Positions 1 through 18,598 of a stretch of DNA of 22,134 nt are shown here, piece after piece. The translations under genes were made by a program, and so were the position numbers. The notes under the pieces were generated by a model that made no database searches, was not told the origin of the DNA, and saw nothing but the letters and a program-made list of their open reading frames with translations. The stretch comes from a virus: positions 1-22,134 of IMG/VR virus record IMGVR_UViG_3300050033_000270; one strand, written 5' to 3'. Within the stretch, counting starts at the first letter, position 1; every line of letters starts with the position of its first letter.

Positions 1-28
1 CGTTGATGCTACCGATATGGTGTTGTAA
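1..28 (+). CDS. C-terminal end of an upstream gene (partial)
   Basis: The second frame is open from the left edge and reads VDATDMVL before a TAA at 26-28. Only eight codons are visible, so no function can be assigned and the frame itself is uncertain. The TAA coincides with the first three bases of the putative -10 box TAAAAT of the next gene. Confidence 0.3.
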
Positions 29-31
29 AAT
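3..31 (+). promoter_or_regulatory. Promoter for a leaderless transcript starting at 38
   Basis: A -35 box TTGATG (3-8), a 17-bp spacer and a -10 box TAAAAT (26-31) lie six bases before the ATG at 38. With the usual distance from the -10 box to +1, transcription would start on the A of the ATG. Direct observation: boxes and spacing. Inference: leaderless start. The same geometry recurs before 688, 1571, 3399, 7397 and 17105. Confidence 0.55.
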
Positions 32-37
32 ATACCT

Positions 38-106
38 ATGGACGAAGATGAAATCTACGAAGACGATGAGATCCTTGATGATGACTTTGAGGGTGATTTG
101 ATATGA
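38..106 (+). CDS. 22-residue highly acidic peptide
   Basis: ATG at 38 opens a 22-codon frame made largely of Asp and Glu with a few hydrophobic residues (it begins MDEDEIYEDDEIL). Its TGA (104-106) overlaps the ATG of the next gene as ATGA. I consider it real for three reasons: it has a well-formed promoter six bases upstream, it is ATGA-coupled to the following gene, and its start context CCTATG recurs at other starts here. Function unknown. Such an acidic peptide could be a leader peptide, a DNA mimic or a binding partner, but nothing in the sequence decides among these. It is too short for most gene callers. Confidence 0.5.
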   Translation: MDEDEIYEDDEILDDDFEGDLI

Positions 107-315
107 GAATCCCTCTTGATTACCAGATGCCTTCTCTTAGTGATCTCAAGCGTGTAGTCGTGCTCATTGCTACAGGAAAAGAAAAGTACAACGAGCAACT
201 CGAGATGACCAAGGAACAGTATCTCCGATACAAGGAGCTCGTGTGGAAAGAAGATCCTATTCGGTTTTACAACGGGATGGAAATCATCGTACCAAAGGAA
301 TCCAATGGAAACTGA
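103..315 (+). CDS. Hypothetical protein, 70 aa
   Basis: A 70-residue soluble protein with a mixed charged composition and no membrane segment or motif I recognise. It contains a helix-prone middle (about residues 27-50, rich in Lys, Glu and Tyr). The start is supported by the ATGA overlap with the acidic peptide and by GAGGG at 89-93, one of the few plausible ribosome-binding sites in the window. The next small gene starts inside its last codons (305). Position among very short genes upstream of the terminase suggests an accessory phage protein. Function not recognised. Confidence 0.6.
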   Translation: MRIPLDYQMPSLSDLKRVVVLIATGKEKYNEQLEMTKEQYLRYKELVWKEDPIRFYNGMEIIVPKESNGN

Positions 316-442
316 ACTGACTGAAAATTATGAATACGTCTATACCATCTCAACGCCAAATAGACTCGACCTGGTGCTTGTGCGTGCCGTGCTCGATCGA
401 GCGCTTTTCGACGAATTGCCAGCAGTAACTAAAACAGTATGA
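305..442 (+). CDS. Hypothetical protein, 45 aa
   Basis: ATG at 305 opens 45 codons ending in TGA at 440-442. It overlaps the preceding gene by 11 bases and the following gene by the ATGA at 439-442. AAGGAA at 295-300, five bases upstream, is a usable ribosome-binding site. The product is acidic at the N-terminus (METELTENYEY) with a central hydrophobic/Arg stretch resembling one amphipathic helix (about residues 20-36). No family recognised. Being sandwiched by overlaps on both sides is the main reason to believe it. Confidence 0.5.
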   Translation: METELTENYEYVYTISTPNRLDLVLVRAVLDRALFDELPAVTKTV

Positions 443-684
443 CCCTCCTCACCCCCTCCGAAACCGAAACCCTCAAGATGTTTGATGAGAAACGCCAAGA
501 AAAAGATGCTCTACGAGCCGTATACGAGGTCTGGTGCGATGTGCGACAAGAAATCTCTACGTACATACGCCACGGTTTGACAAGTATTCGCAACTATTGG
601 CTGTACGGACTAGGAAATACGCCATCGAAAGTGCTAAAATATGGCGTATTCTTTGACTTTATTAGCTATCGGGCGTATACTTAG
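439..684 (+). CDS. Hypothetical protein with ETETLKMF N-terminal motif, 81 aa
   Basis: An 81-residue protein. Its N-terminal segment SETETLKMF (about residues 7-15) is shared with the protein starting at 876, and 23 bases of DNA are identical (460-482 and 888-910). The N-terminal third is charged and helical; the C-terminal third is aromatic-rich (Trp, Tyr, Phe) and overlaps the promoter of the next gene, so its last residues may be under dual constraint. The start is set by the ATGA overlap with the previous gene. Function unknown. The similarity to the 876 protein covers only the first residues, which suggests a shared recruitment tag or a recombined 5' end rather than full paralogy. Confidence 0.55.
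   Translation: MTLLTPSETETLKMFDEKRQEKDALRAVYEVWCDVRQEISTYIRHGLTSIRNYWLYGLGNTPSKVLKYGVFFDFISYRAYT
460..482 (+). repeat. 23-bp direct repeat, copy 1
   Basis: Identical to 888-910. It encodes the ETETLKMF segment near the N-terminus of two otherwise different small proteins (genes at 439 and 876), in the same reading phase in each. Confidence 0.8.
653..681 (+). promoter_or_regulatory. Strong sigma70-type promoter, leaderless geometry, for 688
   Basis: TTGACT (653-658), a 17-bp spacer and TATACT (676-681) form the best consensus promoter in the window (5/6 matches in each box). Six bases separate the -10 box from the ATG at 688, so +1 would fall on the start codon. The promoter lies inside the 3' end of the 439 gene, whose TAG follows the -10 box directly. 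Confidence 0.7.
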
Positions 685-687
685 CGT

Positions 688-879
688 ATGACTACTAAAA
701 AATATCAGTGTCAGATGTGTGGTGCGACGAAGATGCTAGACCCGAAGAAGTGGGGACGCGCGAACGAAGACTCGTACTGCTACTGCCGACCAGATACTCC
801 TAGTTTGATGGATTCAGAGACTCACATACGCTCGATGAAGAAGTATGACCACATCTTCCGAGGAATGAAAACTCTATGA
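688..879 (+). CDS. Small zinc-knuckle-like protein, 63 aa
   Basis: A 63-residue basic protein with C8-x2-C11 and C31-x-C33, a spacing that could bind one zinc ion as a minimal ribbon or knuckle. The segment QCQMCGATKML resembles the first half of many zinc ribbons. The start at 688 is fixed by the leaderless promoter immediately upstream. The stop TGA (877-879) overlaps the next ATG as ATGA. Family knowledge: small phage zinc ribbons are often nucleic-acid binding or contact the host transcription machinery. Which applies here is not determined. A second, unrelated small protein with four cysteines lies at 7688. Confidence 0.6.
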   Translation: MTTKKYQCQMCGATKMLDPKKWGRANEDSYCYCRPDTPSLMDSETHIRSMKKYDHIFRGMKTL

Positions 880-1196
880 CACCATTTGAAACCGAAACCC
901 TCAAGATGTTCAAAGAGAGATTTCCTCTTCCTTGGGACTACAATACAAAAAGGAAAGACATCGAAGAATATTTCCTCACCCAAATCCGTCTCGCCCGCGC
1001 CGACGAACGGAAGCAGGCGTATGAGGAATTGCGGGACGTGATAGAAAACGGAACGCACACGCCTATTAACGCCGAACGCTACCTCCGTATGGTAAAAGAT
1101 GCCAAGGACCCGTTCGATGACGGCTATAACCTAGGCCGTGAGGAAGCGTATGAGCATGTGCTCGTCATCCTAACAAAACCAACATGGGTGGATTAA
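876..1196 (+). CDS. Hypothetical helical protein with ETETLKMF N-terminal motif, 106 aa
   Basis: A 106-residue charged, mostly helical protein. Residues 5-12 (ETETLKMF) repeat the N-terminus of the 439 product. The middle (about residues 30-58) is a Glu/Arg/Lys-rich probable coiled coil with ARADERKQAYEEL. The C-terminal part contains GREEAYEHVLVIL, a pattern seen in many short phage accessory proteins without known function. The start is supported by the ATGA overlap with the zinc-knuckle gene; GAGGA (860-864) lies 11 bases upstream and may assist. The stop at 1194-1196 leaves an 18-bp A-rich gap before the next start. Confidence 0.6.
   Translation: MTPFETETLKMFKERFPLPWDYNTKRKDIEEYFLTQIRLARADERKQAYEELRDVIENGTHTPINAERYLRMVKDAKDPFDDGYNLGREEAYEHVLVILTKPTWVD
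888..910 (+). repeat. 23-bp direct repeat, copy 2
   Basis: Identical to 460-482 and placed at nearly the same distance from the start codon, where it encodes the same ETETLKMF peptide. Confidence 0.8.
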
Positions 1197-1214
1197 AAAT
1201 AATAACCAATAAAT

Positions 1215-1489
1215 ATGGAATACAACTACGGTAAAACAATGGAGGGTAATTTCAGAGACGTAATAGCTTTTCAGTTAGAACAGAGTGATTTTATTGGTAG
1301 CGACGAGCCTGATGTGGAGGACTCAATTAAAAAAGCAATAGATATTGCCGCTAAGGACTGCTCAACTCTATCAAAAATAAAGTCGACGGGTATGTTGTCG
1401 CAGGGTTCACTTCTGCAAAAGAAGCAATAAAGCATATAAAGATTTTGAACAAAGATGCTATCGACTATGAGCTAAAAGAAGCGTACTGA
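1215..1489 (+). pseudogene. Small gene apparently split by a -1 shift (or assembly indel)
   Basis: From ATG 1215 the frame runs 71 codons to TAA 1428-1430, but the residues after about 54 (STGMLSQGSLLQKKQ) look non-native. The -1 frame takes over at about 1372-1380 and reads VDGYVVAGFTSAKEAIKHI and onward as a normal-looking alpha/beta segment to TGA 1487-1489. The junction holds a run of five A (1372-1376); six A would join the two parts into one protein of about 91 residues. The TGA-T-ATG spacing to the gene at 1491 also favours 1489 as the true end. Options are a sequencing/assembly error, a recent frameshift mutation, or programmed slippage. The local A AAA ATA is not a canonical tandem slippery heptamer. 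Function unknown. Confidence 0.5.
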
Positions 1490-1490
1490 T

Positions 1491-1574
1491 ATGATTACCC
1501 AACACATCGACGGTGATCGGTTGCATTCAGATCATCACATGGATGTATCAATCCGTGGTATAGTTAGACCATGA
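1491..1574 (+). CDS. 27-residue His/Asp-rich peptide
   Basis: ATG 1491 opens 27 codons ending at TGA 1572-1574, which overlaps the start of the small-terminase candidate as ATGA. The peptide contains HSDHH (about residues 12-16) and several Asp. It has no ribosome-binding site but sits one base after the TGA of the preceding frame. It may be a real peptide or mainly a translational coupler for the 1571 gene. A -10 box for 1571 lies within it. Evidence is limited to spacing and overlap. Confidence 0.35.
   Translation: MITQHIDGDRLHSDHHMDVSIRGIVRP
1556..1564 (+). promoter_or_regulatory. Extended -10 promoter for the 1571 gene
   Basis: TGG followed by TATAGT (1559-1564) is an extended -10 element (TGn-TATAnT type). 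No convincing -35 box lies 16-18 bp upstream, as expected for extended -10 promoters. Six bases separate it from ATG 1571, the leaderless geometry seen at 38, 688, 3399, 7397 and 17105. Confidence 0.5.
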
Positions 1575-1939
1575 GCAAGAATAAGCACAATGCTGATAAA
1601 ACAGTACCGAAACAGCTAGAACCATATGCTTTCAAACCTGGAGAATCTGGGAATCCTGCTGGGAGACCAGTCGGCTCTGTATCAATAATGGGGCGCATCA
1701 AGACGCTCTTCGCAGAGAATCCAGAACTATTCGCTGGATACATCGCAGACATCGTAGCGGATAAGAATATGCGCAAGGAAGTGCTCCAGCAGATTGATGG
1801 GAAGCCAGTGCAACCTATCAGTGGCGTAGATGGCAATCCTATCGTTCTTCAGATTGTGAAGTACGGAGAAGCTCCAAAAGAAAATGGCAACAATATCACC
1901 CCTGTATCAACCGAGACCATACCAGATACCGCTGCATAA
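1571..1939 (+). CDS. Putative small terminase / DUF5681-like DNA-binding protein, 122 aa
   Basis: A 122-residue protein with FKPGESGNPAGRPVGS at residues 21-36, the signature of the DUF5681-like family commonly encoded directly upstream of phage large terminases. The GRP-containing loop is AT-hook-like. Downstream residues form helices (about 40-75), then a beta segment and a polar tail. Its position, immediately before and overlapping terL by 56 bp, supports a role in DNA recognition for packaging, as a small terminase or its accessory. That role is inferred from position, not demonstrated for the family. The start is supported by the extended -10 promoter and the ATGA overlap with the 1491 peptide. 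Confidence 0.65.
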   Translation: MSKNKHNADKTVPKQLEPYAFKPGESGNPAGRPVGSVSIMGRIKTLFAENPELFAGYIADIVADKNMRKEVLQQIDGKPVQPISGVDGNPIVLQIVKYGEAPKENGNNITPVSTETIPDTAA

Positions 1940-3164
1940 AGCCTTCGATGAAGGAGCCAAGCGGCTTTTCCATATCTGGCATCGTCGTTGCGGTAAGGAT
2001 CTCACAGATCTGAATATCGTCATCGCAGCTATGGCTGAAAAGGTAGGGAACTACTACTACTTCCTGCCGACCTACTCGCAAGCTAAGAAGGTCATCTGGG
2101 AGGGCAAAACGAAAGAGGGAGTGCCATTCCTCGATTTCTTTCCAAAGGATCTCATAGATGGAAAGCCGAATGACTCCGAGCTGAAGATTAAGTTCAAGAA
2201 CGGCTCACTCTTCCAGCTTATCGGTACGGATCACATCGACGCGATTGTTGGTACGAACCCTATTGGCTGTGTGTTCTCGGAGTTTCCCCTGCAAGATCCG
2301 AAGGCATGGAGCTACATTCGCCCTATCCTTGCTGAGAACGGAGGATGGGCTATCTTCAACGGTACGCCGCGCGGGAAGAACCACGCATGGGAAGTGATGC
2401 AGATCGGTAAGGCGAATGGATGGTTCGTTGAAATACTCACTGTTGACGACACTGGTGTTATCGAGAAAGAAGTTCTCGAGTCAGAGAAAGCACAGATGCC
2501 TTCAGCTCTTTTCAATCAAGAATACTACTGCAACTTCATTGAGAATGCGGGACAGTTCTTCCGACGCATCAGAGAAAATCTCTATGATGCTGACGATGTT
2601 TCCGATGATACCCACGATTACCAGCTTGGTGCTGACCTGGCAAAGTACCAGGACTATACCGTTCTTACACCTTTCGACCTCAATACTTTCAAAGTGAAGC
2701 TACAGGATCGATTCAATCAGGTTGACTGGAATCTCCAGAAGGCTCGTATATCCGCCTCTGCCTTTAAGTACAACAATGCTCGAGTGAAGATTGATCGTAC
2801 AGGGGTCGGTGATCCTGTCGTCGAGGATCTCATCTCACAAGGACTCAATATCGGCGAGGACGACGCTATTGTCTTTACCGAAGCGACGCGCATGAACCTG
2901 CTCAACAACCTTTCGATGCTGATCGAACAAGACAAGATCAAGATTCCGAATGACGAGGGGCTGGTCGCAGAACTTGAGAGTTTCCAGTACCGATTATCTG
3001 TCACTGGTAAGATACGCGTCGGGGCTCCAGAGAATATGCACGATGACCGTGTGATGAGCCTCGCACTAGCTGTGTATGGTGTAAAAGACCCCATAGGAGT
3101 CACAAATCGTGGCGGAAGCATCGGGAATGAGGACTGGGGACTCTACAACGCGACGTATGGATAA
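1884..3164 (+). CDS. terL: Terminase large subunit (ATPase-nuclease)
   Basis: The motor and nuclease that translocates and cuts phage DNA at the portal. The 426 residues show the expected order: adenine-binding-like YQPRPYQ near residue 8, Walker A variant HRRCGKD at 33-39, Walker B CVFSE at 129-133 (Ser-Glu in place of Asp-Glu, which is common in terminases), coupling motif NGTPRG at 159-164, then an RNase H-like nuclease with D251 in GADLAKYQDYT, D304 in KIDRTGVGD and HDDR at 386-389. Length and motif order are complete, so the gene looks intact. It begins inside the preceding gene and overlaps the next by 8 bp. The packaging strategy (cos, pac or direct repeats) cannot be read from this alone. 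Confidence 0.95.
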   Translation: MATISPLYQPRPYQIPLHKAFDEGAKRLFHIWHRRCGKDLTDLNIVIAAMAEKVGNYYYFLPTYSQAKKVIWEGKTKEGVPFLDFFPKDLIDGKPNDSELKIKFKNGSLFQLIGTDHIDAIVGTNPIGCVFSEFPLQDPKAWSYIRPILAENGGWAIFNGTPRGKNHAWEVMQIGKANGWFVEILTVDDTGVIEKEVLESEKAQMPSALFNQEYYCNFIENAGQFFRRIRENLYDADDVSDDTHDYQLGADLAKYQDYTVLTPFDLNTFKVKLQDRFNQVDWNLQKARISASAFKYNNARVKIDRTGVGDPVVEDLISQGLNIGEDDAIVFTEATRMNLLNNLSMLIEQDKIKIPNDEGLVAELESFQYRLSVTGKIRVGAPENMHDDRVMSLALAVYGVKDPIGVTNRGGSIGNEDWGLYNATYG

Positions 3165-3396
3165 TTTCATCGGAGTAGAACGCATCCAGCTCTACCAGAG
3201 GATAAAGATCCTCGGCGAGCCTAAGCTGATCCACACTGGAAGCGCAATAATTCCTGTAGGATACAACGTCTGGAGTCCAGACAAGGTGATCGTATACAAG
3301 CGGGTGATACGCCCTGCCGTGGATGGAATGGACGGGAAGCAGGATGATATGTTCGTAGCTGATTGCATTGTGAGCGTTCCGAGCACTATTGTGTAG
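3157..3396 (+). CDS. Hypothetical protein between terminase and portal, 79 aa
   Basis: A 79-residue protein rich in Val, Ile and Gly with alternating hydrophobic residues, suggesting a small beta fold (for example IIPVGYNVWSPDKVIVYKR). I chose ATG 3157, which overlaps the terL stop by 8 bp. The frame also has a start at 3109, but that would lie far inside terL. Its 3' end contains the TTGCAT box of the portal promoter and one copy of a 17-bp element repeated at 13073. No family recognised. The position in the packaging block suggests a minor packaging or head protein. Confidence 0.6.
   Translation: MDNFIGVERIQLYQRIKILGEPKLIHTGSAIIPVGYNVWSPDKVIVYKRVIRPAVDGMDGKQDDMFVADCIVSVPSTIV
3360..3376 (+). 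repeat. 17-bp repeat carrying a -35 box, copy 1
   Basis: TGATTGCATTGTGAGCG is identical to 13073-13089. Both copies place TTGCAT 18 bp ahead of a TAnnnT box and shortly before the start of a virion gene (portal at 3399, connector at 13113). A shorter relative, TTGCATTGCG, is at 19176-19185. Confidence 0.7.
3363..3392 (+). promoter_or_regulatory. Portal promoter, leaderless geometry
   Basis: TTGCAT (3363-3368), an 18-bp spacer and TATTGT (3387-3392) end six bases before ATG 3399. The upstream box lies in the 17-bp element shared with the connector promoter. AGGA touching the ATG is too close to act as a ribosome-binding site, which favours leaderless initiation. Confidence 0.5.
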
Positions 3397-3398
3397 GA

Positions 3399-5300
3399 AT
3401 GCAAGAATCCTCCGAAGAGGTCATCACTGGTCAGTACGGTAACGATGACATTGACCAGATCGCGATAAGCATCGTCCGAACCGAAAAGCAGCGCTGGGAA
3501 GTCGCCACAGCTTTCGTCACTGATCGTGTGAGTTTCAAGATGCGCAATCTCATCCGCATCTTCCGCAAGAACTACTACGGCGTGTTTGACCAGCCAGTCG
3601 ATCCAAACACTCAGATGGAGAAAGTCTGGTATCCGCTCACTGAGATGAATGTCGAAGCGGTGGTGAAGAACATCGATCTCGACTCGAAGGATATTAACTT
3701 CCGCAGTCGCACGACCGATGGATATGCGATGACCGATGTGACTCGCGCTCACGTCAAAGCAAAGCTGCACGAGATGGGCTTTGGGGACAAGATCAAGGAG
3801 TTTACCCGCGACCTAGCTATCGATGGCACCGCAGTCTGGAAGACCTACGAGGAGTATGGAAAGTGCCAGGTGCGCAAGGTGGATCTCCTAAACATTTACA
3901 TAGATCCGACGTCTCCTTCAATCAAGGAGGCATACCGCTTTACAGAACGTGGTTTGATGTTCCCAGAAGAGATCTCATCAATGAACGGATGGCGCAATAC
4001 AAACAACATTGTCCCAGTAGAAGGTCTCCCACGCACTGATCCGTACTGGATGAACCGTGCAACGATGGTGAACTCGAACGTAAAGATGTCAGACGTGTAC
4101 GAGATGTGGGGAAAGATTCCACTCTCACTTATCACAGGGAGACAGTCAGACGAACAGACAGAAGTCGATGGTCATATTGTTGTCTCTGGTATTGATGGTG
4201 GTTCACCACGTTGCCATCTGATTGAAAAGAATCTCAAGAAGTCCCGTGATGGTTTTGCTGTGAAGCCTTACGAAGAAGCGTGGTACACGAAGGTGCCGAA
4301 TCGTTGGTACGGTCGTGGTATCGCTGAGAAGCTCCTTACTCTCCAGATTTATGCGAACATCGTCTTCAATGTGCGCATCAATCGTTCCCGTGTCTCGCAG
4401 CTCGGTCTCTTCAAGGTACGCAAGGGAGCTGGCGTTACGCCACAGATGCTCTCACGTTTGCCAAGCAACGGCGTTGTCGTGCTCAATAACCTCGACGATC
4501 TCCAACAACTCGAAGTGCAGGAAGTCGGTGCTACTTCATACAAAGACGAGGATGTAGTCAACTCGCTCTCTGAGCGCCTTACCAATGCCTTTGAGGTAGC
4601 TACAGGCGAATCCCTCCCATCGTCTACTCCCGCTACAAATGCGGCGATCTCGAACCAGAATGCAAAGAGTGGCTTCGCTATCATCAAGGAAAGCATGGGT
4701 ATCTTCCTCTGCCGTTGGATGGACAATCACGCGCTCCCTATCCTTGCGAAAGAGCTCACAGCCGATGAAATTGTACGCATCGAATCGGATGCTGAGAACT
4801 TCAAGGATCTCGTGGATCGCGTCGTGATGTACAAGGCATCTGAAGCGCTTGATAAACACTTCGAGAATGGCTATATCCCTTCACCGCAGGAACTCCAGAC
4901 TGCGATGGATTCTGCTCGCGAGAAGATGATGAAGAGCCACATGTTCGTGAAGCTCGTGCAGAAGGTCATGGCTGACGAGCTCGACACTATCGTCTATGTG
5001 ACGAATGAAGAGCTCGATGTGCCGATGACCGTCCAGAATCTCCTCGGTATGCTTCATAGCGCTCCACAGTTTAGCGATGCGATTATCAAGCAGACCTTCG
5101 ATCTCTTGAACCTGCCTATGCCGAAGCAGAACGCACAACCTCCTCAGCAGCCACCACAAGGAGGCGTTCCAGTGCCAGTACCAGGGATGCCACCAGCTAC
5201 ACCAACAGGTATGCCACCAATGCCGAATGCACCTGATGCTGTTCGTGCTGCACCGACGATGACAAAGATAGCTACTCGCTCAAACGTACCTCAACGATAA
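3399..5300 (+). CDS. Portal protein, 633 aa
   Basis: Forms the dodecameric ring at the capsid vertex through which TerL pumps DNA. The identification rests on position directly after terL and before scaffold and capsid genes, on length (633 aa) and on a portal-like pattern: a helical N-terminus (RTEKQRWEVATAF), an alpha/beta middle with LLNIYIDPTSPSIKEA, a helical stem, and a long C-terminal helical region. The last 50 or so residues are Pro/Gln/Met-rich and probably disordered (PPQQPPQGGVPVPVPGM). I start at ATG 3399, 2 bp after the previous stop, rather than at TTG 3363, because of the promoter spacing. It is closer to podovirus-type portals in size than to HK97-type portals. The exact subfamily is not resolved. 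Confidence 0.8.
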   Translation: MQESSEEVITGQYGNDDIDQIAISIVRTEKQRWEVATAFVTDRVSFKMRNLIRIFRKNYYGVFDQPVDPNTQMEKVWYPLTEMNVEAVVKNIDLDSKDINFRSRTTDGYAMTDVTRAHVKAKLHEMGFGDKIKEFTRDLAIDGTAVWKTYEEYGKCQVRKVDLLNIYIDPTSPSIKEAYRFTERGLMFPEEISSMNGWRNTNNIVPVEGLPRTDPYWMNRATMVNSNVKMSDVYEMWGKIPLSLITGRQSDEQTEVDGHIVVSGIDGGSPRCHLIEKNLKKSRDGFAVKPYEEAWYTKVPNRWYGRGIAEKLLTLQIYANIVFNVRINRSRVSQLGLFKVRKGAGVTPQMLSRLPSNGVVVLNNLDDLQQLEVQEVGATSYKDEDVVNSLSERLTNAFEVATGESLPSSTPATNAAISNQNAKSGFAIIKESMGIFLCRWMDNHALPILAKELTADEIVRIESDAENFKDLVDRVVMYKASEALDKHFENGYIPSPQELQTAMDSAREKMMKSHMFVKLVQKVMADELDTIVYVTNEELDVPMTVQNLLGMLHSAPQFSDAIIKQTFDLLNLPMPKQNAQPPQQPPQGGVPVPVPGMPPATPTGMPPMPNAPDAVRAAPTMTKIATRSNVPQR

Positions 5301-6402: not shown

Positions 6403-7332
6403 ATGGGACTCGTAAATAATGGTTTGGCAACCTACGGTGATGCTACGATCAAGACCGACATTGTGTTGGACTCGGTCGAAATCATCTCCGCTCGTGAAGA
6501 TGGAATCTTCTCGATGCTCGCAAAGACCAAGGCGATTGCAATGATTCACTCGTACCCGATTGATACCCTTGCAACGGCTGGTTCTATTGCCACAGAGCAA
6601 GGTGCAGACTTCACCTACAGTGCTCGTACGACGCCTACGCTTCTTACGAACATTGTGCAGGAGTTTGCTATCCCAATCCGCGTGACTCGTCCGCAGATTG
6701 CAGTTCAGCATTACCACGGTCAGAATGAACTCGATCGTCAGCTCGCTAAGGGCTTGATGGAGTTCACGAACGGCGTGGAGTTTGATCTCGTGCGCGGGTC
6801 GCTCGCTTCGGGCATCTCGGGTACAGTTCAGGCTATGTCTGGTATCATCCAGGCGATTTCCAAGAGCACTAACACCACGGCGTTTACGTCTGGTACTTCG
6901 TTCTCGGCAACCGTTCTCGATGGTCTCATGCAAGCGTGCTGGACGAACTCTAACGGTGATGTCGCTACTGACATCTTCGTCGGAGGTGCGATGAAGCGCG
7001 TTATGGACGGCTTTATTGCCAAGTCCAACGTCGTTGTCAACTCTCCTGACATTCGTGGCATCGTGAAGACCACTACTACCTACGAGACATCGTTTGGTAC
7101 TGTGACTCTCCACAAGCACCGTTACGTTCAGCAGAGCGGTGATGCGACGGGTCGCGTTCTCGCTATCCGCCCTGAAAAGCTTAAGGTCGCGCTCCTCGAA
7201 GCACCTACGGTGCTCACGGATCTCTCGGTTGGTGGTGCATACACGCCTCGTGCTGTGTACGGCTCCCTCACTCTCGAGGTTCGTAACCAGGACAGCAACT
7301 TCTTTGCGTCAGGGTTCAACCTCACTCCGTAA
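6403..7332 (+). CDS. Major capsid protein, DUF5309/SU10-like
   Basis: The main shell protein. At 309 residues it matches the compact HK97-fold capsid proteins of the DUF5309 (SU10 major capsid) family: an N-terminal segment with REDGIFSMLAKTKA (about residues 31-44), the switch from a target residue to HSYPIDTLATA, a central helical spine with FTNGVEFDLVRGSLASG, the variable Ser/Thr/Gly-rich loop, VGGAMKRVMDGFIAK, then FGTVTLHKHRYV and LEVRNQDSNFFASGFNL at the C-terminus. It is preceded by the scaffold and followed by a terminator 20 bp after the stop. No ribosome-binding site is present despite the need for very high expression. The start context is CCTATG. Confidence 0.85.
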   Translation: MGLVNNGLATYGDATIKTDIVLDSVEIISAREDGIFSMLAKTKAIAMIHSYPIDTLATAGSIATEQGADFTYSARTTPTLLTNIVQEFAIPIRVTRPQIAVQHYHGQNELDRQLAKGLMEFTNGVEFDLVRGSLASGISGTVQAMSGIIQAISKSTNTTAFTSGTSFSATVLDGLMQACWTNSNGDVATDIFVGGAMKRVMDGFIAKSNVVVNSPDIRGIVKTTTTYETSFGTVTLHKHRYVQQSGDATGRVLAIRPEKLKVALLEAPTVLTDLSVGGAYTPRAVYGSLTLEVRNQDSNFFASGFNLTP

Positions 7333-7351: not shown

Positions 7352-7379
7352 AGCCCTTCTCTTTACGAGAGGGGCTTTT
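7352..7379 (+). terminator. Intrinsic terminator after the capsid gene
   Basis: A 10-bp stem, AGCCCTTCTC (7352-7361) with GAGAGGGGCT (7367-7376), has one G-U pair and a 5-base loop and is followed by T residues to 7379. It should end the scaffold-capsid transcript. The loop contains the -35-like TTTACG of the sugar-operon promoter. Confidence 0.85.
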
Positions 7380-7390
7380 GGATTTATAGT
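7362..7390 (+). promoter_or_regulatory. Promoter of the glycan operon, leaderless geometry
   Basis: TTTACG (7362-7367), a 17-bp spacer and TATAGT (7385-7390) end six bases before ATG 7397. The -35 box is modest (4/6) and lies in the loop of the capsid terminator, so termination and re-initiation are physically superimposed. This would uncouple enzyme levels from the very high capsid transcription. Confidence 0.55.
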
Positions 7391-7396
7391 GACGAC

Positions 7397-7687
7397 ATGG
7401 ACACCGCTAAGGTCAAGATTGCAAACATTGTTTCTTCGTACATTGAAAATCATTCGGAGGAGTTCAAACTTCTGAGAGAAGCAAATGAGATGACACGGAA
7501 GATGATACGCGAGAAGACCTATGCGACTGAAGGATCGGACATGGTTCCCATGTATCAGACGAGCGAGCGTATGCAGACTGCCATTGCTACGATGCTCAAT
7601 ATAGACGAAGCTACATGGTTCAAGTCCCGAGAAGGCGGTCGTTGGTTCATCCGTACTTATCCAGTTTTCTCACTCCAAAACTACTAA
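7397..7687 (+). CDS. Hypothetical helical protein, first gene of the glycan operon, 96 aa
   Basis: A 96-residue charged protein with a helical N-terminal two-thirds (KLLREANEMTRKMI, about residues 25-38) and an aromatic C-terminus (REGGRWFIRTYPVF). ATG 7397 is fixed by the promoter six bases upstream and lies after the capsid terminator; an open frame continues upstream but runs through the capsid gene. It is directly adjacent to the next gene (TAA then ATG). No family recognised. As the operon leader it could be a regulator or a head-completion protein rather than an enzyme. Confidence 0.6.
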   Translation: MDTAKVKIANIVSSYIENHSEEFKLLREANEMTRKMIREKTYATEGSDMVPMYQTSERMQTAIATMLNIDEATWFKSREGGRWFIRTYPVFSLQNY

Positions 7688-7876
7688 ATGAAAAACAAGC
7701 CTTTTGACGTTCTCACGTGCGGATGTGGGAGAGAGATTGTACTCGATGCTTCGGATGCGGTGCGGATCGTAAGCTATCCAAACAGCCTATTTGCTTGGTA
7801 TTGCAAGTGTGGGCAGTCTTGGACTCGTCGGCAACCAGATGCAATGGACGTGAGTGAAGCACCAAAAGTTGTATGA
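7688..7876 (+). CDS. Small four-cysteine zinc-ribbon-like protein, 62 aa
   Basis: A 62-residue protein with C11-x-C13 and C39-x-C41, each in a Cys-Gly/Lys-Cys-Gly knuckle, flanking a short hydrophobic strand (REIVL) and an aromatic turn (SLFAWY). The paired knuckles fit a single zinc site. The start abuts the previous stop, and the TGA overlaps the giant glycosyltransferase start as ATGA, so the two are translationally coupled. Function unknown. Zinc ribbons in such contexts can bind nucleic acid or stabilise complexes. Confidence 0.6.
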   Translation: MKNKPFDVLTCGCGREIVLDASDAVRIVSYPNSLFAWYCKCGQSWTRRQPDAMDVSEAPKVV

Positions 7877-10230: not shown

Positions 10231-10403
10231 CACGTTTGTCACCTGAAGGTCAGACGAAGCTAGTAAAATCCCTGGTGGCGAATCTGGAAGCATTCAAAGC
10301 TGCATCCACTATAGGAATTGATATGCGAAAGGTATTCATTATATCTCGTGAAGAATTGCGCTGTATTGATACAGTGATCCAGACGGTCAAAGACTTCATA
10401 TGA
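10227..10403 (+). CDS. Hypothetical protein, 58 aa, between glycosyltransferase and nucleotidyltransferase
   Basis: ATG 10227 overlaps the preceding TGA, and its own TGA (10401-10403) overlaps the next ATG, so it fills the gap between two enzymes exactly. The product is helical: a first amphipathic helix (about residues 8-27, LVKSLVANLEAFKAAS) and a second near the end (RCIDTVIQTVKDFI). It is probably a small subunit or helical binding protein. No family recognised. The double ATGA overlap is the evidence that it is translated. Confidence 0.6.
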   Translation: MTRLSPEGQTKLVKSLVANLEAFKAASTIGIDMRKVFIISREELRCIDTVIQTVKDFI

Positions 10404-10798
10404 AGAAGGGGATCACATTTGGAACTTTCGATCTCTGTCATGCAGGACATATGCTCATGTTCAAAGAAGCGAAAGAGCAATGTGACTATCTAATTGTTGG
10501 TCTTCATAGTGATCCGTCCCTCGAGCGCCCACGCAAAAACAAGCCGATTATGTCACTGGCGGAACGGAAGATCATTCTTGAGGGAATCAAATATATTGAC
10601 GAGATTGTGACGTACGATCTCGAAGAAGATCTCATCGATATTCTTGTGGACTACAAACCAGATGTACGCATCATTGGTGCAGACTGGAAGAATAAGCATT
10701 TCACTGGCTTTGAACTTCCCATTGAGACCTACTACAATACAAGAGGTCACGGATATTCCTCAACCGAGCTCCGAGAACGAATCAAACATGCAAAGTAA
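10400..10798 (+). CDS. Cytidylyltransferase-like nucleotidyltransferase, 132 aa
   Basis: A compact nucleotidyltransferase of the TagD/RfaE-C type. GTFDLCHAGH at residues 8-17 carries the HxGH catalytic motif, GLHSDPS follows the second strand, ERKIILEGIKYIDEIV matches the conserved helix, DVRIIGADW the nucleotide-site strand, and GYSSTELRERI (about 117-127) the C-terminal T/S-S-T motif. Length (132) equals single-domain family members. The reaction would be CTP (or another NTP) plus a phosphorylated polyol or sugar to a nucleotide-activated donor; the substrate cannot be read from sequence. It likely supplies a donor to the glycosyltransferases in this operon. It overlaps the methyltransferase gene by 11 bp. 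Confidence 0.85.
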   Translation: MKKGITFGTFDLCHAGHMLMFKEAKEQCDYLIVGLHSDPSLERPRKNKPIMSLAERKIILEGIKYIDEIVTYDLEEDLIDILVDYKPDVRIIGADWKNKHFTGFELPIETYYNTRGHGYSSTELRERIKHAK

Positions 10799-11276
10799 AG
10801 CAGAAATCGAAGAGTGGTACACCAAGCCTGATCCTTGGGGTTATGAAGGCACACAGGACGATATTGACCGAAGGAGTATCATCCTAAGAACATGTGGAGA
10901 AGCAATGTTTTATGATCGAGCTCTCGACATAGGATCTGGGGAAGGGTTTATTACTGCTCATCTCCCAGCAAAAGAAATCGAAGCGTATGAAATCTCTGAC
11001 AATGCTGCTGCACGTCTACCGTGGAATGTGCGACGGGTAATCAAGCCGACTGGGAAGTATGACCTGATTATTGTCATGGGTATGATGTACGCGCACTATG
11101 ACTTCCCGATGTTCCTGCGAATGATACGAGAGCACGCCGATGGTCTGGTGATTCTGTGCAATATCAAGGAATGGGAAGTGAAAGAAGTCTGCCAGCTTGG
11201 TGAGCCAGTCGAGACGTTCGAGTTTCCTTATCGTGAGTTCACTGAAGTAATGCGCGTATATGATTTTGCTTCATAA
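10788..11276 (+). CDS. NodS-like SAM-dependent methyltransferase, 162 aa
   Basis: A class I methyltransferase. Motif I is ALDIGSGEG at residues 45-53, and YEISDNA provides the acidic end of strand 2 that binds the SAM ribose. The preceding WYTKPDPWGYEG (10-21) closely resembles the DPWGY signature of NodS-type enzymes, which N-methylate a deacetylated glucosamine in Nod-factor synthesis. That analogy is notable because the next gene is deacetylase-like. At 162 residues it is slightly short for the family. I chose ATG 10788, giving an 11-bp overlap with the upstream enzyme, rather than an in-frame start at 10644 inside it. It overlaps the next gene by 17 bp. Confidence 0.8.
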   Translation: MQSKAEIEEWYTKPDPWGYEGTQDDIDRRSIILRTCGEAMFYDRALDIGSGEGFITAHLPAKEIEAYEISDNAAARLPWNVRRVIKPTGKYDLIIVMGMMYAHYDFPMFLRMIREHADGLVILCNIKEWEVKEVCQLGEPVETFEFPYREFTEVMRVYDFAS

Positions 11277-11757
11277 TATCGGCGACGAGAAGCATTCAAA
11301 CTACAACACACGCGAGCAGATCATGGCGTGCGGCGAGATGCTTTCATTCGATGGAGTGTACCGAAGCGTGTATGAGAATCGAGACCTACTGATGGATCGC
11401 CCATTCTTTATGTTCGTAGGTGGGGACACTATCGGCAAAGACAATGCTTTTGACTTGGCAAACGTACCAAAGCTCGAGCAATTTTGCACGATGGAAGAAT
11501 TGGAAGAACTCGCACACTCATATCTCGGGATTCTCGCATGGCATACGTGGACTCATAGAGATCTCACTACGCTCTCTGAAGATGAGATTCGTGGAGAGCT
11601 TGAAAGACCCTCTGGCTTCGCACCGTATATCGCATATCCCTATGGTAAGTTCAATGACACGGTGATCAGAATTGCTAAGGAAATGGGGTATATTCGTGGC
11701 TATTCGGTGACTGAAGGGGACAATAGCCAGTTTCAAATACTTCGCTCCTATTTATGA
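11260..11757 (+). CDS. Polysaccharide deacetylase-like (NodB-fold) protein, 165 aa
   Basis: Resembles the CE4/NodB family, which removes acetyl groups from GlcNAc-type sugars with a metal ion. Visible motifs: SFDGVYRSVYEN (29-40) in the place of motif 1, HTWTH (95-99) as motif 2 with H95 and H99, and AYPYGKFND (125-133) as motif 3. Motif 1 normally has two consecutive Asp (TFDDG); here only D31 is present and the metal-ligand position reads Gly, so activity is doubtful or altered. At 165 aa it is shorter than typical catalytic domains (about 200). Located between a NodS-like methyltransferase and a GT2, it may deacetylate or bind the glycan being made. ATG 11260 overlaps the methyltransferase by 17 bp. 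Confidence 0.75.
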   Translation: MILLHNIGDEKHSNYNTREQIMACGEMLSFDGVYRSVYENRDLLMDRPFFMFVGGDTIGKDNAFDLANVPKLEQFCTMEELEELAHSYLGILAWHTWTHRDLTTLSEDEIRGELERPSGFAPYIAYPYGKFNDTVIRIAKEMGYIRGYSVTEGDNSQFQILRSYL

Positions 11758-12350
11758 TTACTTGTGTCATCGCATCGTACAAATACGGGCACCTAGCGGC
11801 TCAAGCGATTGAGAGTGTGCTTTGCCAAACACGACCAGCAGATCGAATCCTTTTCGTTGACGACGGAGCGGGAGACTGTAAACATTTGCCAGCACTCTAT
11901 CCGACCGTTGAGTTTGTTTTACGACCAAGAAATCTAGGTGTAGTTGCAAACTTTCAGAATATGCTCTCACAGGTGATGACTGATAAGGTGATGTTCCTTG
12001 GTGCTGACAACTATCTACGACCAGATACTCTTGAGAGGCTTGATACAGTAGACGCGGACATCGTCTCGTATGACATCGCTCTATTCGGAGATCAAGTTGA
12101 GGAGTTCAGGAAGATCGTTCCTTGTCTGAAGCAGGATGGATACTATATTTGGCGTGGCGCTCTACACGGATCGTCACTCTACAATGTCGAAAAGGAAAAA
12201 GCTGCTGGCGGGTATGTCCGCAATCCACACTCGGTGAAAACAGAAGAGGATAAGATGCTTTTCGAGAAGATGCTCGAGCAGGGTGCGCTGAGGCATAATC
12301 TATCAGAGCCTTTGCTTTATTATCGGAGACATAAACACAACTTTCAATGA
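11754..12350 (+). CDS. GT2 family glycosyltransferase, 198 aa
   Basis: A GT-A fold inverting glycosyltransferase. CVIASYKYGHLAAQAIESVL (residues 4-23), VDDG at 35-38 for nucleotide binding, RNLGVVANFQNML (59-71) and the DxD-equivalent GADNYL (83-88) are all in the expected order; EEDKMLFEKML near residue 165 corresponds to the acceptor-side catalytic acidic region. It is short (198) but contains the whole catalytic core. ATGA overlaps on both sides place it in the same translational chain. Sugar and acceptor unknown. No membrane segment. Confidence 0.85.
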   Translation: MITCVIASYKYGHLAAQAIESVLCQTRPADRILFVDDGAGDCKHLPALYPTVEFVLRPRNLGVVANFQNMLSQVMTDKVMFLGADNYLRPDTLERLDTVDADIVSYDIALFGDQVEEFRKIVPCLKQDGYYIWRGALHGSSLYNVEKEKAAGGYVRNPHSVKTEEDKMLFEKMLEQGALRHNLSEPLLYYRRHKHNFQ

Positions 12351-13075
12351 AAATCTACGTCGTCATACCGCACTACATCCTCAATGACCACATTGCAGAG
12401 CTCGCTAAGAACGCTATAGCATCGTTCAAGAAGTATCCCGTGACCGTGGTATCGGTTGATGACGGATCGCCTATGGGTATGGAGTGCCTGAAGGACTCTG
12501 ATGTCATCATTCCTCGTGTGAATGGCGGCTTCGCGAAGGCTTGCAACACGGGTTTCAAATATGTCCTTGAGCAGAATGAGCCATGCTGGGTGGTATGTGC
12601 GAACAATGACATCGAAGTATCAGGTAATTGGATCGAGGAGGCACAACGATGCTTCGATCAGTTCCAGGCTGACATGGTTGGTGGTCTAGGGTATCGGATC
12701 AAGGAGTTTCCAAAAAGAGACGAAAACTTTGTCACTGAAGGCGGTCAACTCGAAGATTTTATGTTCCCAGGTGGATTTTACATCACTACGGACGCATTTC
12801 TTCGCGAGATAGGGCAATACGACGAGAAATACGAGCATGGTGGCATTGAGGACATAGACCTGTTCTACAGAGCTAAGAAAGCCCACAAACGACTAATAAT
12901 GACACCTAAGATCAAGTATTGGCATGAAGAAGGAGCGACACGTTACTCAGAGACACAGAAGGGCAAGCAGAGCGAAGCAATCAAGCGAAATGAGGACTAC
13001 TTCGAGAAGAAATGGGGATTTGATCCGATTCGACAGCTCAATACGATTCTGCGGGACAACCGTCTCAATCCGTGA
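12347..13075 (+). CDS. GT2 family glycosyltransferase, rhamnosyltransferase-like, 242 aa
   Basis: The last gene of the glycan operon. VVIPHYILNDHIAEL at the N-terminus, VDDGS (37-41), NGGFAKACNTGF (59-70), the DxD-like CANNDIEV (84-91) and GGIEDIDLFYRAKKAH (165-180) with the ED catalytic pair, followed by YWHEEGATR (191-199), are typical of WbbL-type GT2 enzymes that add rhamnose or similar deoxysugars. The specificity is an analogy, not shown. The stop TGA (13073-13075) is the start of the 17-bp element that carries the connector promoter, so the operon ends there. Confidence 0.85.
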   Translation: MKIYVVIPHYILNDHIAELAKNAIASFKKYPVTVVSVDDGSPMGMECLKDSDVIIPRVNGGFAKACNTGFKYVLEQNEPCWVVCANNDIEVSGNWIEEAQRCFDQFQADMVGGLGYRIKEFPKRDENFVTEGGQLEDFMFPGGFYITTDAFLREIGQYDEKYEHGGIEDIDLFYRAKKAHKRLIMTPKIKYWHEEGATRYSETQKGKQSEAIKRNEDYFEKKWGFDPIRQLNTILRDNRLNP

Positions 13076-13089
13076 TTGCATTGTGAGCG
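13073..13089 (+). repeat. 17-bp repeat carrying a -35 box, copy 2
   Basis: Identical to 3360-3376. Here it is intergenic (its first bases are the stop of the last glycosyltransferase), whereas copy 1 is coding. A purely coding explanation is therefore unlikely for both. Confidence 0.7.
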
Positions 13090-13105
13090 CTTAGAGCGCT
13101 ACGCT
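13076..13105 (+). promoter_or_regulatory. Connector/tail-block promoter
   Basis: TTGCAT (13076-13081), an 18-bp spacer and TACGCT (13100-13105) end seven bases before ATG 13113. The spacer length equals that of the portal promoter, whose -35 region is identical. An inverted repeat (13090-13110) covers the -10 box. Confidence 0.45.
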
Positions 13106-13110
13106 CTGAG
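13090..13110 (+). promoter_or_regulatory. Inverted repeat over the connector promoter
   Basis: CTTAGAGCG (13090-13098) and CGCTCTGAG (13102-13110) are inverted about a 3-base centre with one mismatch (a G-U pair in RNA). It has no T run, so a terminator is unlikely. Its position across the -10 box suggests an operator or a hairpin near the mRNA start. The AGCGCT copies at 13086-13091 and 13095-13100 can form an alternative fold. Confidence 0.45.
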
Positions 13111-13112
13111 TA

Positions 13113-13850
13113 ATGACTCTTGGAGATGTTGCAAATAAGGCACGTGCACTCACTCACACTGATACTACTTCGTATACAGCGGCTAATATTCTGATCGACA
13201 TCAATATCTGGTATCACAAGGCAGTTTCGATGGTTCTCGAGAGCATCGATCAGGCAGACTTCGATGATCAGCGTCGAACGAACTACCCGATCCAGACGAC
13301 TCCGATGGTTGCAGGTCAGCGCGATTACACAATGCCTGTCTCTGAGAAAGTACTCAAGATTAAGCGTGTCGATATAACGTATGACGGGACGAATTGGTAC
13401 CGAGCATCTCTTTTCGATGATGGTGTGTTTCCATACGGTATGGGCAATGACACGTCCGTGGATACAAACTTCATCAAGCAAGCTCCACAGTACGACGTGA
13501 AGTACAACTCGCTTTTCATCTACCCGCTTGCTGCTGCTTCGGATGTAGCTGCTGGTGCCGCTATCCGCATTGAATGGGATCGCCAGATTCAAGTATTTAC
13601 CTCGAGCGACTATACAACTGACCCGAATGATTCGACGGTTGTACTTGGCTTCGATGATCCTTTCCATCCTATTGTCGCTTGGGGCGCAGCATTCGAGAAA
13701 GCTACGGCAGACCAGTTGCCGAATCTCGGAACGATCCAGACTGGGCTTCAGGATTGGGAACAACGTCTTCGTGTCGCATATGGCAATAAGGTACGGGATG
13801 CGAGCCTTACTGTTGCAATGGGGGGCAATGCAATGATCGATTTCCATTAA
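13113..13850 (+). CDS. Putative head-tail connector / tail tubular-like virion protein, 245 aa
   Basis: A 245-residue protein with a helical N-terminus (TLGDVANKARALTHTDT and a following helix rich in Ile and Asp), then a beta-rich centre with AGQRDYTMPVSEKVLKIKRV (about residues 69-88), and a C-terminal helical segment with PIVAWGAAFEKATADQL and LQDWEQRLRVAYGNK. This alternation of N-terminal helices, beta core and C-terminal helix is typical of podovirus connector or tubular A proteins such as T7 gp11-like adaptors. The match is structural pattern, not a named family. As the first gene after the sugar operon, with its own promoter, it opens the tail block. Confidence 0.55.
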   Translation: MTLGDVANKARALTHTDTTSYTAANILIDINIWYHKAVSMVLESIDQADFDDQRRTNYPIQTTPMVAGQRDYTMPVSEKVLKIKRVDITYDGTNWYRASLFDDGVFPYGMGNDTSVDTNFIKQAPQYDVKYNSLFIYPLAAASDVAAGAAIRIEWDRQIQVFTSSDYTTDPNDSTVVLGFDDPFHPIVAWGAAFEKATADQLPNLGTIQTGLQDWEQRLRVAYGNKVRDASLTVAMGGNAMIDFH

Positions 13851-15311: not shown

Positions 15312-15500
15312 ATGAGAGTCTCTCTTCCTACAAACAGAAAGATGAGGCGAGATCACGTTGTCACAAAATCATTCAGCTACTCAAAAGATGATGTAACACT
15401 TGCGTTCTCACTTCGTGTGGATAATAAATCTCAACTCAAAGCATTTGAAGAGCTGCTGGTCGAGGCTCTTGCTGAAGTGCGTGAGGAGATAAAGAAATAG
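15312..15500 (+). CDS. Hypothetical protein, 62 aa
   Basis: A 62-residue protein that is basic at the N-terminus (RVSLPTNRKMRRDH), with one central strand (VTLAFSLRV) and a strongly acidic C-terminal helix (KAFEELLVEALAEVREEI). GGAGG at 15296-15300 is 11 bases upstream and may serve as a ribosome-binding site although it is the coding end of the previous gene. Function unknown. Very small proteins of this pattern often sit among tail genes. Confidence 0.55.
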   Translation: MRVSLPTNRKMRRDHVVTKSFSYSKDDVTLAFSLRVDNKSQLKAFEELLVEALAEVREEIKK

Positions 15501-15502
15501 AT

Positions 15503-16381: not shown

Positions 16382-16382
16382 T

Positions 16383-17072
16383 ATGTCACGATTCGGACGA
16401 TCATTTCCAATACATCCTCTCAACAAGCAGGTAATGCGTGGGACGATGTCCTTTACTTCGATCTTGACCGACGGAGTGATCGGCACAGATACAGTAGCAA
16501 AGGCAACGCAACGTAGCTTTCTGGAAGGCATCATCGGAACGGATACTCTCGCAGCAGTTCGTCTTCGTGCGCAAACACTTACCGATGGAGTTATAGGCAC
16601 TGATTCGATAGTCAGAAGCACCGTAAAATCACTCGTGGACGGTGTGATTGGGACTGATTCGATCATTCGCTCTACAGCCCGTCTTTTCACTGAAGGAGTT
16701 ATTGGCACCGACACGAGGACGACAATCCGAGGGAAGTTTGCAACTCTCATCGAAGGAATTATTGGTGTTGATAATCTGATTCGGAGTACAGTGAAATCAC
16801 TCGTGGACGGAGTCATCGGAACGGATACCTTCGCTTTGATGCGTTCTCGATTCTCTATTCTTACAGAAGGAATCATAAATACTGATACATATTCTCGTAT
16901 CCTCACTAAACTTGTGATGCTCACCGAAGGTATACTCCACACAGAGACCCTAAAGAAGCTTCTCAATGGAGCAGATGTCATCTGGTCGCATGTCGCAAAA
17001 TCAGCGGCAGCTACTTGGTCGAAGGCATCGAAGGCGGCAGCAGCGACTTGGACTCACCTGAATATCTCATGA
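16383..17072 (+). CDS. Tandem-repeat fibre-like protein with nine DGVIGTD repeats, 229 aa
   Basis: Residues about 27-190 consist of nine imperfect repeats of 18-20 residues, each with a core like L-T/V-D/E-G-V/I-I-G-T-D-T/S followed by an Arg/Ser/Thr-rich segment (examples: LTDGVIGTDSIVRSTVK, LTEGIINTDTYSRIL). Regular spacing and the hydrophobic alternation suggest a solenoid or beta-stacked fibre. The C-terminus has Trp-based repeats (VIWSHVAKS, ATWSKASKA, ATWTHLNIS). Part of the repeat is recent at the DNA level: 17 bp at 16626-16642 recur at 16794-16810. No enzyme motif. It starts one base after the previous stop. It is most likely a tail appendage; the exact role is unknown. Confidence 0.6.
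   Translation: MSRFGRSFPIHPLNKQVMRGTMSFTSILTDGVIGTDTVAKATQRSFLEGIIGTDTLAAVRLRAQTLTDGVIGTDSIVRSTVKSLVDGVIGTDSIIRSTARLFTEGVIGTDTRTTIRGKFATLIEGIIGVDNLIRSTVKSLVDGVIGTDTFALMRSRFSILTEGIINTDTYSRILTKLVMLTEGILHTETLKKLLNGADVIWSHVAKSAAATWSKASKAAAATWTHLNIS
16461..16960 (+). repeat. Nine-unit coding tandem repeat
   Basis: Units of about 54-60 bp encode the DGVIGTD-type motif. Most units have diverged in DNA while conserving protein, whereas units 3-4 and 6-7 share long identical stretches, suggesting later duplication or gene conversion. Confidence 0.7.
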
Positions 17073-17098
17073 CTTGTGATAAGGAATCGTAATACACT
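17069..17098 (+). promoter_or_regulatory. Promoter for the 17105 gene, leaderless GTG
   Basis: TACACT (17093-17098) is six bases before GTG 17105. ATGACT (17069-17074) is a weak -35 box 18 bp upstream. The in-frame TAA at 17090-17092 excludes any upstream start, so GTG is the first possible start of this gene and matches the leaderless spacing. Confidence 0.45.
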
Positions 17099-17104
17099 AC
17101 TTTT

Positions 17105-18598
17105 GTGATAGGAAAATACCAACTCGAGTTCAATGAAAAGCAGTTTACTGCTGGCATTTCTACAAATGACACTACTAGCGACGGCGGTCTTGCACCATCT
17201 TCAAAAGGGACGAACCTAGTACTCTCTCCTGGTACGGTATACGCTACGGCAGCAGAAGTATCTCTTCATCCAAATGATCCGACTGATAATATAATTGCTT
17301 CAAGTGAAGACTCAGAAGGTGTGCCTGTCCAACGTGTATTTCTTGGTGATACTGGGAACTTTTATACCCTTTCTTCAGGAGTTTTGGCGCCTCTTTTTAC
17401 TGGCAGCAAGACGTATATACCTGGTGGTACAGATTTCGTTGCTTTCAATACTGATTTTTCTACATTCTCTGGATGTTATTTCGCGACATCAGCAACAGAC
17501 ATTGCAAAATATAAGTTCCTAAATGGGGTCAGTTCATCTATGGATGAGACGTGGTGGTCTTCAACAAAAAGCCAAGGATCATTCACGAACTCTGGTGTTA
17601 GTACCGCGCATCCTATGGTCGTATTCCAGTCGCGTCTTTGGGTTGCAGACGTAAACACGAATCATCAGGCAACACTCCACAATATAACCACAGGAGAAGT
17701 AATCAGTCTGAATGTCTTTACTCTTGGATCAGCAAATGAGTTCATCTACGCACTTGCAGTCGATCCTTCGACTGGTTTGATGATGATTTCTACCTCTCGA
17801 GGTACAAACTATGGAGATACTATGCAGCAAGAAAACTATGTGTACCTCTACGATGGATTCTCATCTCAGTACACTCGCCAGATCCGTGTCGATGACCTTG
17901 TGACAGCCTTCCATATCGTCGGTGGTCGTGTCTACTGCACTTACGGAAACAATCTCGGTGTTTGGAACGGGAATGGTGTTTCATTCCTCCGTGTACTCAA
18001 TAATGTGAATCTTGTTGGTGCTCAACTCGCATACAAGCACAAGATGGCGAATTACAAGAATACACTTTTTGTAGCAGATGGGACTCAAATCCTTGCATAT
18101 GGTGCAATCAATCAGGCTGGTGGTCTACAGGGAACAGCAAGCCCCGTCTTTTACTATCCATACTATGCTCAGACATCTACTTCATTCCTATCTCATATTG
18201 CGCATGTCGGATCAGGAGTGATCGCGGCAGCATATCTTGACGGAACTACAAAGAGATTGTATCTTACCGATCTTACATCAACAACAGCAGGAAGCGCTTT
18301 GGTGGCACCTCAGACGACATATCTACCGCGTCCTATATTCGTCCGAAGAATGCGCGTCATAACGACTGGTATCACGACTACGGCTGGAATTGGGGACACA
18401 GCTATCGTCGATGAGACTGGAACATCTCACCAGGCTACTGTTCATAAGTTTGTGGTAGCGACTGCGCAGTCACCACGATATGTATTCGATTTCGATTTCA
18501 CGAATCTTAAACTCCAGACACTCCAAGTGAATATCAATATTGACACGCAACACTTCGGTATCAAGCGCGTCATCATTTACTACGACATAGCTGAGTAA
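17105..18598 (+). CDS. Large beta-propeller-like virion protein, 497 aa
   Basis: A 497-residue all-beta protein rich in Thr, Ser, Gly and aromatic residues. Repeating blade-like blocks can be seen: FLGDTGNFYTLSSG, FQSRLWVADVNTN, YALAVDPSTGLMMISTSRG, YVYLYDGF, IVGGRVYCTYGNN, NTLFVADGTQILAYG. Such repeats are typical of propeller folds in phage nozzle or tail-tube proteins, for example tubular-B-like nozzles of podoviruses. The comparison is by pattern. The protein begins with GTG (first start after an in-frame TAA). It is located midway in the tail block and probably belongs to the tail or nozzle. Confidence 0.6.
   Translation: MIGKYQLEFNEKQFTAGISTNDTTSDGGLAPSSKGTNLVLSPGTVYATAAEVSLHPNDPTDNIIASSEDSEGVPVQRVFLGDTGNFYTLSSGVLAPLFTGSKTYIPGGTDFVAFNTDFSTFSGCYFATSATDIAKYKFLNGVSSSMDETWWSSTKSQGSFTNSGVSTAHPMVVFQSRLWVADVNTNHQATLHNITTGEVISLNVFTLGSANEFIYALAVDPSTGLMMISTSRGTNYGDTMQQENYVYLYDGFSSQYTRQIRVDDLVTAFHIVGGRVYCTYGNNLGVWNGNGVSFLRVLNNVNLVGAQLAYKHKMANYKNTLFVADGTQILAYGAINQAGGLQGTASPVFYYPYYAQTSTSFLSHIAHVGSGVIAAAYLDGTTKRLYLTDLTSTTAGSALVAPQTTYLPRPIFVRRMRVITTGITTTAGIGDTAIVDETGTSHQATVHKFVVATAQSPRYVFDFDFTNLKLQTLQVNINIDTQHFGIKRVIIYYDIAE

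Follow-up and report, generated by a model that had tools for sequence, protein, structure and literature searches.

How does a phage begin translation when its genes carry almost no Shine-Dalgarno (SD) motifs? The question is raised by a 22,134-base IMG/VR virus fragment from an uncultivated phage (referred to here, at its whole length, as the window), in which several genes are preceded by a TAnnnT box ending exactly 6 nt before the start codon. It is highly probable that these boxes belong to sigma70-type promoters whose transcripts would begin with the start codon itself, making the first cistrons leaderless, as the initial annotation proposed. Four lines of evidence favor this reading: the position statistics of the window, a start-blind promoter scan, conservation in front of the portal gene, and a pyrimidine-rich base at -1.

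Promoter-like boxes in the window

The following genes provide the framework for our analysis:

Left end of the window: small open reading frames (ORFs) upstream of the terminase genes, containing the starts at 38 and 688
Start 1571, plus strand: probable small terminase
1884 to 3164, plus strand: large terminase (phrog_2, Terminase_6C)
3399 to 5300, plus strand: portal/head-tail adaptor (phrog_332), with the conserved late promoter in front
6403 to 7332, plus strand: SU10-type major capsid protein (PF17236, 4.6 × 10−44), in the capsid operon
Start 7873: large glycosyltransferase/TPR protein
3' of 7873: nucleotidyl-, methyl-, and glycosyltransferases, followed by tail-region genes

Positions 7873 to 13075 form a run of sugar- and nucleotide-modifying genes placed between the head and tail genes (a TPR/double glycosyltransferase, a cytidylyltransferase, a methyltransferase, a polysaccharide deacetylase, and two glycosyltransferases). 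The large glycosyltransferase is kept throughout the window's phage family.

With start codons assigned by ORF rules, 6 of the 34 starts in the window have a TAnnnT box ending exactly 6 nt upstream (gap 6), versus a mean of 0.5 matches at each of the other 30 gaps between 0 and 30 nt (Poisson P[≥6] = 1.4 × 10−5; 4 × 10−4 corrected for all gaps). The TAnnnT frequency of the window predicts 0.37 matches at gap 6. A seventh start, at 13113, has its box at gap 7. Six of these seven sites, 17105 weakly, have a -35-like hexamer 17 or 18 bp upstream of the -10 box, within the 16 to 18 bp expected of sigma70-type promoters. Two classes can be distinguished: a canonical form (TTGAnn, 17 bp, TAtanT), typified by the sites at 38 and 688, and a form in which TTGnnTTG lies 18 bp from a TAnnnT box. 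The latter, which stands in front of structural operons, is referred to here as the late class, with activity presumably late in infection. The predicted sites are as follows:

3 to 40, plus strand: predicted canonical leaderless promoter; TTGATG (3-8), 17 bp, TAAAAT (26-31), 6 nt, ATG 38
653 to 690, plus strand: predicted canonical leaderless promoter; TTGACT (653-658), 17 bp, TATACT (676-681), 6 nt, ATG 688
1556 to 1573, plus strand: predicted extended -10 leaderless promoter, with no -35; TGG-TATAGT (box at 1559-1564), 6 nt, ATG 1571
3363 to 3401, plus strand: predicted late-class leaderless promoter; TTGCATTG (3363-3370; -35 hexamer TTGCAT), TATTGT (3387-3392) 18 bp from the first hexamer, 6 nt, ATG 3399
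7362 to 7399, plus strand: predicted leaderless promoter; TTTACG (7362-7367), 17 bp, TATAGT (7385-7390), 6 nt, ATG 7397
13076 to 13115, plus strand: late-class promoter; TTGCATTGTGAGCG (-35 hexamer TTGCAT, 18-bp spacer), TACGCT (13100-13105), 7 nt, ATG 13113
17069 to 17107, plus strand: weak late-class promoter; ATGACTTGTGA (weak -35 hexamer ATGACT, 18-bp spacer), TACACT (17093-17098), 6 nt, GTG 17105
19176 to 19217, plus strand: candidate late-class element read from the sequence; TTGCATTG (19176-19183), upstream of ATG 19215

The last of these is doubtful because no TAnnnT stands at the expected place, while the promoter at 688 ranks among the strongest of all sites scanned. Every coordinate that the initial annotation had given for the seven starts checks out, and its -35 boxes lie where it placed them. 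Its view that the boxes lead operons holds in that the signal is confined to transcript-leading genes (about 27 of the 34 starts have no box), although 38 and 688 precede the terminase genes and so lie outside the structural late region. Its suggestion of a whole late region organized in this way went too far: the geometry is restricted to genes that lead transcripts, and the majority of cistrons are internal and lack SD motifs. Counting against the leaderless reading is the capsid gene at 6403, which is presumably the most strongly expressed and itself has no gap-6 box.

Conservation among relatives and the late promoter element

We gathered 84 relatives from IMG/VR in two scans with the SU10-type capsid protein, and removal of duplicates left 70 sequences, counting the window. 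All 20 relatives tested for this protein, the marker of SU10-capsid Caudoviricetes, score above the cut-off, and one contig (L001) is near-identical to the window. No close cultured relative was found; the top capsid hit in annotated phages is environmental, with about 30% identity. One relative (L011) carries a group I intron (RF00028) at 9784 to 10007, directly before and into its capsid gene match, and the capsid reading frames of L023 to L025 are partial or late-starting and may be interrupted.

The initial annotation had proposed checking whether the boxes are kept in relatives while the surrounding sequence drifts. This is the case at the portal gene, whose upstream regions we aligned on the -10 box in seven phages (the window, L002 to L006, and L036). 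Identity is 82% in the 8-nt left (-35) element and 30%, or about random, in the 10-nt spacer core, and the -10 box has an invariant T/A/T around a 27% identical center. Choosing sites as TAnnnT accounts for part of the invariance of the -10 box, but it imposed no such selection on the left element or on its constant 18-bp distance. The box at 1571 is kept in some relatives (TATTAT in L004 and TAATAT in L003, both at gap 6; gone in L036 and others), and the box at 7397 is kept in several. The box at 17105 is missing from the three relatives with that gene (L003, L004, and L006). The promoter at 13113 is kept in L003, L004, L006, and L036, but there it is leadered, lying about 45 to 60 nt upstream of the ATG. 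Among late structural operons, a leaderless-type promoter precedes the portal gene in seven phages and lies 3' of the capsid gene in several, and the 13113 operon is leadered in four relatives.

The late-class sites of the window resemble each other beyond the -35 hexamer. Those ahead of 3399 and 13113 share TTGCATTGTGAGCG, 14 identical nt (3363 to 3376 versus 13076 onward), and the site ahead of 17105 shares TG..TTGTGA with both at the same offset. When we searched the relatives for TTGnnTTG near starts with the spacing left free, the 18-bp offset recurred in most sites. When only the left element was scored with a weight matrix, more sites came to light in L004, L006, and L036, with an ATG 6 to 8 nt after the -10 position, which did not enter the score.

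It is a realistic possibility that TTGnnTTG is recognized by a late activator or an alternative sigma factor encoded by the phage and is not a -35 element read by the host's main sigma factor. Compared with its -10 box, which is TAnnnT only, the element is longer (TTGyATTGrTAya) and more strongly conserved; its 18-bp offset is nearly invariant; each phage has copies at several structural operons; and it coexists with canonical 17-bp promoters. On the other side, TTG at -35 fits sigma70, and no sigma factor or activator was recognized among the Pfam-scanned proteins, which only sample the early regions. Leaderlessness would follow from the -10 position in either case, so that a dedicated activator or sigma factor is compatible with the leaderless part of our preferred explanation.

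Gap 6 also stands out across the family, with 120 ORFs having a box there versus about 50 at other gaps (1,352 ORFs in 70 sequences). A bias from in-frame stop codons was considered as the origin of this peak and ruled out, because TAYnnT boxes, which cannot be in-frame stops, peak equally (71 at gap 6 versus about 21 at other gaps). The unselected middle positions of these gap-6 TAYnnT boxes drift to TATAAT.

We also scanned 80 sequences (1.16 Mb) for sigma70-like promoters while ignoring start codons. Measured from the -10 box, the first ATG lies at 6 nt in 25 cases and at 7 to 9 nt in 28, only 0 to 3 times at each distance from 10 to 18 nt, and then in a second, broad group at 19 to 40 nt that represents leadered genes. 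These two groups suggest that the family uses both leaderless and leadered transcripts; many family promoters have leaders of about 13 to 33 nt. Under strict settings, gap-6 promoters were found in only 18 of the 80 sequences, indicating that the leaderless device is widespread but not universal.

The same distances bear on whether these promoters might instead have variable starts, giving short leaders of a few to about 15 nt and ordinary, SD-less translation. The shoulder at 7 to 9 nt would indeed give leaders of 1 to 3 nt, but the sharp mode at exactly 6 nt and the near-empty interval from 10 to 18 nt make short leaders of this kind unlikely, as does a pyrimidine at -1 before A at +1, which fits initiation on the AUG. 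It is highly improbable that the boxes reflect the random occurrence of TAnnnT in AT-rich upstream regions, spotted post hoc: the pattern is loose and the family's start contexts are A-rich, but the window P is about 10−5, the excess is replicated in relatives, and the boxes are conserved against a drifting spacer.

At 7397, the predicted leaderless promoter overlaps the end of the preceding operon:

7352 to 7376 (7379 with the T run), plus strand: intrinsic terminator of the capsid operon; 10-bp stem closed by a TTTAC loop and followed by TTT

By its computed fold (-20.2 kcal/mol, z = -4.5), this hairpin with its T run is a textbook intrinsic terminator. Five bases of the -35 hexamer TTTACG form the loop of the terminator and the sixth belongs to its stem; the 17-bp spacer contains the T run. 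One transcript would thus end and the next begin within about 45 bp, the terminator loop doubling as the -35 element. Similar arrangements can be read in L002 (TTGCAA), L013 (TTGACG), L054 (TTTACA), and L079 (TTGACA, with a shorter spacer), and L036 probably has one as well, which shows how far such genomes compress their transcription signals.

Translation initiation and the host

The initial annotation was right that ribosome-binding sites are nearly absent, and the same is true of the whole phage family. Counting AGGA, GGAG, and GAGG at positions -15 to -4, we found SD motifs at 4.9% of 978 family starts versus 8.4% in an upstream control stretch, so that the motif is absent and even depleted. 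The same code detects SD motifs at 38% of starts in lambda, 45% in Thermus phage P23-45, and 53% in the distant relative MW202524 (control stretches, 2 to 6%), and the family's lack of SD motifs is therefore not an artifact of the code. The family's start contexts are rich in A, and 57% of its 907 starts have T at -1, versus 18 to 33% in the control phages. This T could extend the pairing of the initiator tRNA and so replace the SD interaction. Leaderless-type starts (n = 45) differ from the rest in having C or T at -1 in 82% of cases, with C at 31% versus 10% elsewhere. Internal cistrons are mostly butted together, which suggests coupling or reinitiation.

In the mechanism that we propose, RNA polymerase would initiate at the start codon's first nucleotide, leaving a leader of 0 to 3 nt. 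The first cistron would then present its AUG at the 5' terminus for direct binding by ribosomes or initiator tRNA. The tightly packed, SD-less cistrons downstream would be reached by coupling or reinitiation through their A-rich context and T at -1. Canonical and late promoters would both feed this pathway, the latter at structural operons.

Leaderless genes of the TA-led type in bacteria have a TAnnnT box located about 12 bp before the start codon (Zheng et al. 2011, PMC3160421), and among the bacteria surveyed leaderless genes are a minority, exceeding 20% of genes in Actinobacteria and Deinococcus-Thermus (PMC3160421). The window family shares with these genes the motif, its position (an above-background box about 12 bp upstream), the presumed start on the AUG, and the lack of an SD motif before such genes; unlike them, it is a family of uncultivated phages in which no SD motif is detectable. 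Middle and late mRNAs of Thermus phage phiYS40 are mostly leaderless, and its leaderless late strategy involves a shift in the balance of host initiation factors, with IF2 up and IF3 down (PMC3594737). The likeness to phiYS40 lies in the proposed leaderless phage transcripts; the Thermus phage that we compared by sequence is P23-45, which uses SD motifs, whereas the window family has none and has its own late -35 element. The large terminases of the window and P23-45 share only about 27% identity. The lambda cI mRNA is leaderless and begins at its AUG from a sigma70 promoter; it is, however, a single regulatory gene in an SD-using phage. The Manatee Spring podophage ctKR88 (MW202524) has an SU10-like capsid protein 30% identical to that of the window and likewise a glycosyltransferase gene after the capsid region, but it uses SD motifs (53% versus 2%) and has no excess of gap-6 boxes.

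The family-wide absence of SD motifs suggests that the host, too, probably begins translation in an unusual way. Because Mycobacteria and Deinococcus combine SD motifs with leaderless starts, a phage family without SD motifs points to other hosts. TGA is the stop codon in 201 of 907 family genes, which speaks against UGA-recoding host groups. A host among the Patescibacteria is a tentative candidate. Searches of the accessible literature turned up no description of CPR phages that initiate leaderless or without SD motifs. Alignment of the capsid protein to genome contigs found no relative. An archaeal host, considered from the terminase, was rejected since the matches to archaeal MAG contigs (about 30%) are too distant and such a host clashes with bacterial -35/-10 boxes. 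The only tRNA found among the family is in L055. SD-free leaderless expression would be a readable trait of the host ribosome that narrows the host search, and it makes a testable prediction about the host's own genes. It also matters for annotation, because gene finders that expect SD motifs will misplace starts in such phages.

Leader hairpins in relatives

Two conserved hairpins occur in the leaders of relatives and are concrete RNA targets; neither was found in the window, and an Rfam search of eight loci, most carrying one or both, gave no match to either. We tentatively suggest that neither this lineage of phages nor, by extension, that of its host relies on SD pairing to begin translation. 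Operons would open with leaderless AUGs under a dedicated late promoter, the cistrons inside them would depend on SD-less A-rich reinitiation, and, in transcripts with a leader, the hairpins (AGAGG loop; AGGCGG...CCTTACCT) may assume ribosome or antitermination roles.

The first hairpin has a YAGAGG-type loop (CGAGG in L099) and lies 9 to 27 nt upstream of 13113 homologues in eight phages:

L043 17108; L046 16421; L051 11765; L096 973 (minus strand): YAGAGG-type hairpin
L097 16303; L099 10783 (minus strand); L103 5734 (minus strand); L112 585: YAGAGG-type hairpin

Its stems are almost wholly different in sequence, and yet, with pairs counted in register by a script, the six loop-proximal pairs form in all eight phages and covary strongly, with up to five pair types per position. 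The loop displays an SD-like core in a family that is otherwise SD-less.

The second hairpin, AGGCGG...CCTTACCT, consists of a stem with a C/UUA internal loop and lies 3' of a promoter in about a dozen phages:

L011 6213 and 17390; L012 2773 and 13366; L014 687; L043 17081: AGGCGG...CCTTACCT hairpin
L046 16384; L054 13370; L055 16179; L059 11414; L064 9078: AGGCGG...CCTTACCT hairpin
L073 11389; L110 19012; L112 544: AGGCGG...CCTTACCT hairpin

Three of these carry the compensatory change of AGG/CCT to GAG/CTC, and 13 cells are changed on both sides of the stem, a number matched by none of 500 shuffles. The hairpin usually lies a few tens of nucleotides downstream of a TATAAT-like box, ahead of a portal or 13113-type operon.
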